From assembly GCF_000377945.1 (NCBI RefSeq), contig NZ_KB898927.1:1-64000 (forward strand): 64,000 nt of DNA, given 5' to 3'. Positions 11,552 to 52,561 of the stretch are shown here, in pieces (positions within the stretch are counted from its first letter, which is position 1; each line of letters starts with the position of its first letter). The notes below the pieces were generated by a model. The model worked only from the letters and a program-made list of their open reading frames with translations, was not told the DNA's origin and did no database searches. Both the position numbers and the translations under genes were made by a program. This stretch comes from Thioalkalivibrio sulfidiphilus (GTDB lineage Bacteria; Pseudomonadota; Gammaproteobacteria; Ectothiorhodospirales; Ectothiorhodospiraceae).

Positions 11552-12497
11552 GCAACGCATCCTCACCGGACTGGTGCTGGTCGTGGTGGTGTTCGGCAGC
11601 ATCCTGCTCCTGCCCACCTGGGCCTTTGCCCTGGGCGTGCTGGCGGTGCTGCTGGGCGGTGCCTGGGAATGGTCTCGTCTGGAACGAGCCATCGCGACCA
11701 GAGGGAGCCCGGAGGGTGAGCCCCAGGGACGGGGCGAACAATGGTCTCGTCTGGAACGAGTCATCGCGACCAGAGGGAGCCCGGAGGGTGAGCCCCAGGG
11801 ACGGGGCGAACACTGGGCCCGTCTGACCGGCAAGGGCGGGCAGGCCGGCCGGCTGGCCTACCTGGGGCTGATCCTGCTGCTCGCGCTGGGGGCGGCGTTC
11901 CTGTGGCAGGGCGGCTCGGGTCTGTGGCCGGTGCTGGCCGGTGTGGTATGGTGGGCCGTGGTACTGGTGCTGCTGGCCATCTATCAGCCCGGCGGCCACC
12001 GGCACCCGGTGCTGACTGGCTTGGCAGGCCTGCTGACCCTGATTCCCGCCGGGCTGGCCTTGGTCATGCTCCACGAGGTGAGCCCGCTCTGGCTGGTGTT
12101 CCTGGTGTTCCTGACCTCCACCGCCGACAGTGCGGCCTATTTCACCGGCAAGCGTTTCGGGCGCAACAAGCTGGCCCCCCACATCAGCCCCGGCAAGACC
12201 CGGGAGGGTCTGTTGGGGGCACTGGTGGCCACCGCCCTGCTGGGGCTGGCCGGGGCCTGGTGGTTCGAGGTGCACCCGGGCCTGTGGTTCTACTTCGTGG
12301 CCCTGTGCCTGGTGACCGCCCTGTTGTCCGTGGCGGGCGACCTGTTCGAGAGCCTGGTCAAGCGCGAGGCGGGGGTGAAGGACAGCGGCACCCTGCTGCC
12401 GGGTCACGGCGGCGTGCTGGACCGCATCGACAGCCTCACGGCCGCCGCACCGGTGTTTCTGCTGGGCCTGGTCTGGGGCAACATCCTGTCCCTGTAA
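11538..12497 (+). CDS. cdsA: Phosphatidate cytidylyltransferase with a 48-residue repeat insertion
   Basis: CdsA makes CDP-diacylglycerol from CTP and phosphatidate in the inner membrane. Several hydrophobic helices are visible, plus the signature region [15 protein letters not shown]...[11 protein letters not shown] near the C-terminus. The 319 residues exceed the usual 270-285 because residues 45-92 consist of two 24-residue tandem copies ([20 protein letters not shown] then RGEQ) inserted between a WEW motif and the ARL that normally follows. The insertion is charged and lies between the first and later membrane helices, probably in a loop. The frame is intact and the active-site region unaffected. 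Confidence 0.93.
11670..11813. repeat. Two tandem 72-base triple-hairpin units inside cdsA
   Basis: Copies 11670-11741 and 11742-11813 differ at two positions. Within each, CTCGT and ACGAG can pair around CTGGA, and GCCCC...GGGGC can pair. Read in reverse, the unit aligns with the 66-base units at 23919-24158 and with the element at 52427-52480. All three share a GGGTGAG core, a following variable stem and CGAA. Being a multiple of three with no stop in this frame, it leaves the cdsA frame open. Confidence 0.85.
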
Positions 12498-23833: not shown

Positions 23834-23918
23834 GAGGGGATCCGGTTTTTCAGGTTAATCAATGGATTGGAAAATTGGCGCCGGGACCCGTGAGGGCTGC
23901 CGGTGCTGTGGTAGCATT

Positions 23919-24158
23919 GTTCGGCCCGTCCATGGGCCTCACCCCTGCGGGGCTAGCGCGATGAATCGCTCCGGGCGATTCATTGTTCGGCCCGTCCATG
24001 GGCCTCACCCCTGCGGGGCTAGCGCGATGAATCACTCCGGGCGATTCATTGTTCGGCCCGTCCATGGGCCTCACCCCTGTGGGCTTGCGCGATGAATCGC
24101 TCCGGGTGATTCATAGTTCGGCCCGTCCAGGGGCCTTGCCCCTGTGGGGCCTGAGCGG
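23919..24158. repeat. Tandem array of 66-base triple-hairpin units (3.6 copies)
   Basis: Units start at 23919, 23985, 24051 and 24116 (the last truncated). Each holds three inverted repeats: GGCCC/GGGCC, CCCC/GGGG around TGC, and ATGAATCG/CGATTCAT around a 7-base loop. The minus strand is open across units with a 22-codon period (RASPAGVRPMDGPNNESPGA...). That is the same frame and partly the same peptide (SPxG) as the cdsA insertion. It fills the 361-base gap between divergent gnnA and rnhB, where I see no gene. Confidence 0.85.
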
Positions 24159-52216: not shown

Positions 52217-52306
52217 GGAGAGGTGGCAGAGCGGTTGATTGCACCGGTCTTGAAAACCGGAGACGGGGTAACCCGTTCGTGGGTTCGAATCCCACCCTCT
52301 CCGCCA
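52217..52306 (+). tRNA. tRNA-Ser(UGA)
   Basis: The acceptor GGAGAGG pairs with CCTCTCC. The anticodon stem CCGGT/ACCGG surrounds a loop with anticodon TGA, the class II variable arm is 14 or more bases (GACGGGGTAACCCGTT), and the T-arm is GTGGG-TTCGAAT-CCCAC. The 3' CCA is encoded (52304-52306). The 90-base length fits a serine tRNA, and it reads UCA codons. Confidence 0.97.
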
Positions 52307-52355
52307 TACAAAAGCAAAGGGCCCCCGGCAGTATCGGGGGCCCTTTGCTTTTGTA
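52307..52355 (+). terminator. 21-bp terminator hairpin after tRNA-Ser
   Basis: TACAAAAGCAAAGGGCCCCC (with a further G) pairs perfectly with the complementary arm 52335-52355 over GCAGTAT, ending in a T-rich segment (CTTTTGTA). A near-copy of its upper stem lies at 52511-52542. Confidence 0.9.
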
Positions 52356-52368
52356 TTGTGAGCAAGCT

Positions 52369-52542
52369 GGATTCGAACCCACGAACATGGACACGAGGGT
52401 TCGACGGGCGAAGCGCAGCGTAGCCCGAACGTTGCCGCCCAGCGGCGACGGCCCGGAGGGTGAGGCGCGATAGCGCCGAATAATCCCACCCTCTCCGCCA
52501 TACATAAACAAAAGGGGCCCCCGGCAGTATCGGGGGCCCTTT
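52369..52542. repeat. Scrambled duplicate of the tRNA-Ser 3' end and terminator, with a triple-hairpin unit inside
   Basis: Bases 52369-52386 are the exact inverse complement of the tRNA T-arm (52275-52292). Bases 52482-52504 repeat the tRNA 3' end plus CATACA in direct orientation. The stem 52511-52542 repeats the terminator. Between them lies 52399-52480, which contains CGGGC/GCCCG and GCCGC/GCGGC stems and the GGAGGGTGAG core with a GGCGC/GCGCC stem. That core is shared with the repeats in cdsA and at 23.9 kb. Confidence 0.75.
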
Positions 52543-52561
52543 GCCGTGTACGGCCCCCGCC

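Follow-up and report, generated by a model that had tools for sequence, protein, structure and literature searches.

An RtT-like repeat unit with a host-matched tail and a dispersed hairpin core behind tRNA-Ser(UGA) of Thioalkalivibrio sulfidiphilus

Analysis of a 64,000-nt stretch of Thioalkalivibrio sulfidiphilus (contig NZ_KB898927.1, positions 1 to 64,000 of the forward strand; hereafter the window) revealed that the DNA behind its tRNA-Ser gene is an RtT-like unit of the E. coli tyrTV/RtT type, found here in a new host organism and behind a different tRNA. Across related units, the tRNA-derived pieces match the upstream tRNA, while the hairpin core between them is independent of it. This core is a discrete dispersed repeat placed precisely after 'GA' without target duplication, and at the locus under study it lies in the T-loop of a partial second tRNA 3' end.

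ARAGORN identified a single tRNA gene in the window, an intact tRNA-Ser (anticodon TGA/UGA; 52217-52306, + strand; RF00005, 62.5 bits) with encoded CCA. Its terminal 19 nt (A58-A76; 52288-52306, +), delimited by a repeat search with a random-stretch control, form the segment that is duplicated, and they are followed by a perfect 22-bp GC-rich stem-loop (52306-52356, +; inverted-repeat search) that is terminator-like by inspection. A consensus terminator scan of the + strand did not call this stem, probably since the perfect 22-bp stem extends into the T-rich tail. Further downstream, the inverted-repeat search located an exact inverted copy (52369-52386, - strand) of 18 nt of the tRNA, running from the variable arm over the 5' side of the T-arm up to the start of the 3' side of the T-stem (52275-52292; 100% identity). 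Inspection of the sequence also shows the T-arm 5' side in a short direct copy, GGGTTCGA (52397-52404, +), as a third tRNA-derived piece beyond the inverted arm and the 19-nt tail, and therefore the hairpin core (52405-52481, +; 67.3 bits with core model R1 at 52404-52482, and folding) splits the T-loop between GGGTTCGA and AATCCC. The core is followed by the second copy of A58-A76 (52482-52500, +), identical to the host tRNA at 19/19 positions in both the repeat search and the tail comparison, and by a second copy of the GC-rich stem (52512-52544, +; 97% identity to 52316-52348) with degenerate outer arms. The longer direct pair 52288-52326/52482-52520 is 87% identical, its exact part being the 19 nt. 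The layout can thus be read as A58-A76 of the tRNA, a flank with the terminator-like stem, the inverted T-arm copy, GGTTCGA, the core, A58-A76 again and the flank again, and the locus is one RtT-type repeat unit of 194 nt (about 195 bp) together with the beginning of the next.

These matches exceed what was obtained by chance, as the longest match to the tRNA-Ser among 986 random 300-nt stretches of the window was 12 nt direct and 11 nt inverted, compared to 19 and 18 nt here. The small hairpins between the tRNA copies have a minimum free energy of -65.4 versus -51.3 (sd 3.8) in 200 shuffles (z -3.7). The four components named in the original prediction, i.e. an inverted T-arm copy, a hairpin unit, a direct copy of the tRNA 3' end with CCA and a second terminator stem, were hence all recovered, the last with its terminator status resting on inspection. 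Neither ARAGORN nor the repeat search found the 5' part of a second tRNA-Ser (acceptor, D and anticodon arms); only the T-arm 5' side and A58-A76 are duplicated.

In an Rfam scan, the RtT model (RF00391) matched the region 52350-52500 (+) with 40.4 bits (E 1.3e-6 to 3.7e-6). As the match remains below the gathering score of 45 bits, we term the unit RtT-like rather than an Rfam member. The placement is that of RtT, with the element beginning 44 nt after the tRNA-Ser and ending with a 19/19 copy of the host tail. In the RF00391 alignment, the helix that closes the 5' arm with the tail contains several non-standard pairs, and the minimum free energy structure places the arm into a local hairpin instead. 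Other weak Rfam matches at the locus (Plastid-psbl-rps4, sX4, ohsC and others) lie far under their cut-offs, overlap the tRNA or the GC-rich stem and were discarded. A second line of evidence was provided by R1, a model of the core alone built from 77 cores with E. coli excluded, which scored 67.3 bits at this locus and 32.9-44.4 bits at the four E. coli units, so the core is shared with E. coli RtT. E. coli K-12 contains three units at 178-bp spacing after tyrV and one between tyrT and tyrV, and its rttR is annotated as a small RNA. The three units after tyrV have the same order of pieces as the Ser unit (tRNA 3' 19 nt, flank, inverted arm, GGTTCGA, core, 19-nt tail), with tails of the tRNA-Tyr type. 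The unit described here differs from these 178-bp RtT/rttR repeats (RF00391) in its host, tRNA-Ser(UGA) instead of Tyr, in its length of 194 nt and its score below the 45-bit cut-off, in a closing helix with the tail that comprises only GGAUU/AAUCC, in an inverted arm that matches the T-arm 5' side, and in the strong stem between tRNA and unit. According to passages of PMC2965389 and PMC4986893, the RtT repeats of E. coli tyrT have long been known and are discussed as the source of an RNA by-product that may act in the stringent response; a passage of PMC2965389 also describes rtT as resembling BIME-type repeats, consistent with the repeat nature of the core, and passages of PMC4986893 report RtT-type RNAs in Actinobacillus and cite a role in amino-acid limitation.

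A DNA search of the own genome with the whole unit returned no other full copy, and the resulting impression of a singleton was overturned by covariance-model searches. RtT-like matches (E <= 0.001) were detected in 66/369 genomes sampled from the class, and in 47/398 genomes sampled from the phylum, of which 23 are members of the class and 24 of a single family (f207) outside it. The class sample yielded 129 matches, 128 of which were placed; one (G264:C155) was left out as its locus sequence was missing. The majority (86/128) lie at most 90 nt downstream of a tRNA or tmRNA gene on the same strand, the hosts being 40 Ser, 29 Gln, 9 Tyr, 3 Glu, 3 Arg and 1 Val tRNA and 1 tmRNA. The remaining 42, which have no ARAGORN tRNA within 90 nt upstream, comprise 17 located farther from a tRNA, mostly as later units of the tandem arrays that exist, and 25 with none upstream (contig ends, decayed or split tRNAs). 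The unit behind the tmRNA gene (L036, G048:C182:1578-1716) ends with a tail identical to the tmRNA 3' end (19/19), so that the host may be a non-tRNA gene.

Comparison of the element tails with the last 19 nt of their hosts revealed full identity in 54/86 elements and at least 17 matching positions in 72/86; in 10/86 the match was 13/19 or lower. None of the 4854 comparisons with hosts of another kind reached 17, and when set against other tail sequences for the same amino acid (879 comparisons), the own host fitted better in 844, equally in 24 and worse in 11. The inverted arm likewise fits its own host better (mean longest match 9.7 versus 6.8 for others). Copying of the flank (at least 15 nt) was detected in only 34/72, and therefore duplication of the terminator is not universal. 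For the cores, mean identity between genomes was 0.645 both among units of the same isoacceptor and among those of different tRNAs (p 0.53; 101 of the 128 cores). Within a genome, core identity across tRNAs was 0.704, above the permutation maximum of 0.692 (n=2000), an excess that rests heavily on one genome (G014; 12/33 pairs). In G015, the Val and Gln cores are 95% identical, each unit carrying the tail of its own host, and the Val tail copy has A at position 59 where the host has G. In the open-licence literature searched, we found no description of class-wide host-matched tails, of T-loop cores or of a mobile core.

The core is present in many copies, as expected of a dispersed palindromic repeat: R1 detected 4-26 cores per genome in 12/12 genomes scanned, which had been picked as RtT carriers, the own genome having 26. 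The dispersed cores that were fetched mostly start directly after GA and end with GARTA, GARTC or GAACA. In the own genome, 8 cores reside in the palindrome CCCTCTCCCTCAGGGA^GAGGG or close variants and 3 in GACAAGCAAGA^AAAGTAACC. Since the filled form CCCTCTCCCTCAGGGA[core]GAGGG can be compared with 21 exact empty copies of the first palindrome, the insertion is precise and free of target duplication. The window itself contains two tandem cores (11675-11812, +; R1) that lie in frame in a cytidylyltransferase ORF (cdsA-like, PF01148; 11538-12497) and add a repeated 23-residue stretch to the protein, as well as three tandem cores without tRNA context (23918-24114, -; R1) with a partial fourth beside them (24117-24150, -; R1). 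Elsewhere, cores occupy the T-loops of tRNA-like genes that have no second tail (G122, G223, G237) and, after GGCTGA or GGTTGA, the D-loop of tRNA-Ser-like genes (L182 in G015:C54, L118 in G264:C141, L173 in G122). With regard to structure, 60/82 cores fold into four hairpins, the mean z is -2.97 with z < -1 in 83% of the 82, and the last hairpin covaries, both sides of its best pair being changed in 40/77 rows of alignment A1, which holds 77 of the 82 de-duplicated cores after five miscut or outlying ones had been removed by hand. A hairpin DNA repeat would be expected to show such structure as much as an RNA would.

Several further arrangements were observed in the course of these searches. 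The palindrome CCCTCTCCCTCAGGGAGAGGG, itself a target of core insertion, is abundant, with 21 exact places in the own genome, and occurs in all five congeners scanned. At G264:C141, cores are found in the D-loop and the T-loop both, and two loci of the own genome (L161, G000:C48; L162, G000:C27) carry two consecutive cores in one split T-loop behind other tRNAs, with the tails AATCCTCTCGGGCGC and AATCCTTCCGGGCGC. In G122, three tandem copies at 213-bp spacing (L076, G122:C1:491261-491811) each represent a near-complete tRNA-Gln-like gene with a T-loop core and a lost CCA. Near-identical cores in the same genome were considered as a separate mobile unit and rejected, as they are nested in a ~254-bp repeat at three of the loci compared.

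Among congeners, several tRNA-Ser genes of one genome are followed by the stem and inverted arm seen here, cores differ at the orthologous site, and some genomes are without the unit. At the syntenic Ser(tga) gene, the own genome (G000) and G372 share the first 80 nt after the CCA (80/80), compared to 52/88 in the cores, and G372 also contains the start of a further unit; these different cores could also reflect the loss of different units from an older array. In G370, the first 80 nt are identical (80/80) behind Ser(tga), Ser(gct) and Ser(gga), and the same 80 nt follow Ser(gga) of G369. The second tail of these G370 and G369 units is of the host type where intact, and in G370 the units of Ser(tga) and Ser(gga) show truncation or decay in their later part. 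Behind Ser(gct) of G370, a different and presumably native terminator comes after the second tail, and the host-specific base at position 66 is present in both tails. The syntenic Ser(tga) loci of G106, G379, G322 and G377 contain neither the unit nor a second tail, and the Ser(gct) genes of G000 and G372 have neither core nor second tail. Degenerate loci were found as well (G371 L227 and G000:C15). Among the nearest named records listed, which may leave out the own record, the Bax1-I neighbour of the locus is 94% identical to a Thioalkalivibrio sp. MAG and 90% to T. denitrificans, which puts the organism within the Ectothiorhodospiraceae.

Taken together, host matching, tRNA-independent and dispersed cores, precise insertion, units shared among tRNA-Ser genes, empty sites in congeners and the likeness to E. 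coli tyrTV argue for a mobile core that resides in a partial duplicate of the tRNA 3' end and is spread and amplified by recombination, an explanation that we consider probable. The core would have hopped into the T-loop sequence of such a duplicate, the tandem growth of units would proceed by recombination via the 19-nt copies, and common tRNA sequence would allow recombination or gene conversion to carry units from one isoacceptor gene to another, a process at tRNA genes that would also keep the 19-nt copy equal to the host. As the upstream tRNA is intact, we propose that the unit is largely selfish, near-neutral DNA that the cell tolerates, and any RNA from it would be a by-product of tRNA transcription. 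Several observations stand against this explanation. RAYT/Y1 genes are present in 8/8 genomes and only one of 27 has a clear core within ~1.5 kb, and our searches yielded no mobilising enzyme for the core. The poorly matching tails (10/86) and the restricted flank copying (34/72) are likewise not in its favour, and a single simple crossover with a gga or tga donor would not give the two tails of G370 Ser(gct) their host base at position 66. Furthermore, insertion of the core does not account for the origin of the inverted arm.

A selected, functional RNA was weighed against the mobile core, namely an RtT-like RNA made by read-through whose antisense arm and spare T-arm/CCA end might imitate the tRNA or base-pair with it and so adjust how it is folded, processed or modified. 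The joint transcript of tRNA and unit is predicted to fold far under shuffles (z -9.8); in this fold, the 18-nt arm lies against the T-arm, and the second tail against the 5' strand of the acceptor stem. The folding of the cores (z < -1 in 83% of 82), the covariation of their last hairpin (up to 40/77 rows), the small-RNA annotation of rttR in E. coli and the RtT-type RNAs reported in passages of PMC4986893 for Actinobacillus are in line with such a role. However, the low joint folding energy is largely due to the duplicated pieces, the strong stem divides the tRNA from the unit at this locus, several close relatives are without the unit, and cores swap and decay. In addition, the core also occurs in unrelated palindromes and in a protein gene, and therefore its hairpins lend no support to a function linked to the tRNA. 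We thus judge the functional RNA to be rather unlikely. A process in which each new insertion copies the local tRNA 3' end, for example through template switching or reverse transcription primed by the tRNA end, with tail and inverted arm newly generated at each host, appears doubtful to us. It would explain why the fit of tails and inverted arms to their host extends to different amino acids, why the G015 cores are 95% alike between Val and Gln hosts, and why the shared unit and stem in front of a different terminator behind G370 Ser(gct) come with two host-type tails. On the other hand, no polymerase or integrase was linked to the units, gene conversion after insertion explains isoacceptor matching equally well, and the G015 Val copy departs from its host at position 59 (A versus G). 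The corresponding general proposal, that RtT-type units are tRNA-templated mobile elements in which a tiny non-coding core travels from one tRNA or tmRNA gene to another and, at each arrival, has the terminal 19 nt and an inverted T-arm of the host copied around it, so that the tRNA would survive and the element would always carry its host's tail, is equally doubtful in our view. If true, the tail boundary at A58 would be set in the T-loop by the chemistry of insertion or copying, and to our knowledge, such mobility is not known for any element of this size.

The remaining alternatives stem from the original prediction, which had suggested either a decayed second tRNA-Ser with an inserted repeat or the duplicated attachment site of an integrated element. 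The anatomy suits the former, as GGGTTCGA[core]AATCCC..CCA represents a T-arm interrupted by a dispersed repeat, but the locus is no local accident: many genera show this layout, be it after tRNAs for Ser, Gln, Tyr, Glu, Arg and Val or after a tmRNA, and so does E. coli tyrTV. A one-off scar, in which the tRNA-Ser end was duplicated and inverted locally and the repeat then inserted by chance, would agree with pieces that fit a decayed second tRNA 3' end, with the scattered cores and with the degenerate state of some loci (G371 L227, G000:C15); it is contradicted by the recurrence of the order of pieces in 66/369 genomes of the class and in E. coli and by the host matching in 72/86, and is accordingly very improbable. 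Relatives with a simple single tRNA-Ser and independent copies of the fragments elsewhere had been named as the observation that would speak against the predicted duplicate; this applies in part, since simple single loci and scattered cores were both observed, but the tRNA pieces matching the host turned up within an RtT-type unit. tRNA 3' ends are common integration sites, and the 19-nt repeat of the 3' end is att-like, as would be left at tRNA-Ser by an integrated or excised island or phage. However, no integrase was present among the 16 window ORFs scanned, the neighbours in the window being ordinary genes (Bax1-I, CusF, multicopper oxidase and CopC/CopD), and the four integrase genes found in the genome reside on other contigs (C1 twice, C5 and C54; none on C7). 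The four syntenic loci without the element have no second copy of the 3' end, and the stem copy, inverted arm and core sit at fixed places in a unit for which tandem arrays exist. The absence of integrase, cargo and second copies in empty relatives led us to reject the island scar, to which we attach almost no probability.

Apart from RtT, the core invites comparison with other known systems. Rickettsia palindromic elements are hairpin repeats that insert in frame into protein genes. By description, they resemble the core in the cdsA-like ORF; core sites, in contrast, include the T-loops of tRNAs. Integrative elements that target tRNA genes are generally flanked by a repeat of the tRNA 3' end and leave the tRNA intact, as here, but the present unit of ~195 bp has its own stem and inverted arm and contains neither integrase nor cargo. 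REP palindromes linked to RAYT genes (GTAG and CGTC families), described in passages of PMC3733652 that also name the Rickettsia elements, are likewise small hairpin repeats with many copies per genome, sometimes within genes, and RAYT genes are present in the same genomes as the cores. The core, however, measures ~65-90 nt and comprises several hairpins with fixed ends (GA^C..GARTA), whereas REP are tagged palindromes of 20-40 bp. At 27 RAYT (Y1_Tnp) loci in 8 genomes, one clear case of a nearby core was found, and identity with a RAYT-driven REP was thus dismissed as unsupported (1/27).

With tails that follow the host across several amino acids and a tmRNA, and a core that is repeated elsewhere, the nature of RtT becomes a testable question of mobility, of gene conversion at tRNA genes and of the tolerance of insertions in essential RNA genes. 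The same two properties explain the annotation noise behind tRNA genes, including tRNA fragments, spurious ORFs and weak Rfam matches. Two minor observations were made apart from these units. In G370, an ORF behind tRNA-Ser(cga) (L280, G370:C1:257800-258500) resembles the start of an integrase by eye, and the tRNA gene may serve an island there. The window also contains an ordinary t44 RNA (RF00127; 7356-7450, +; 77.9 bits).
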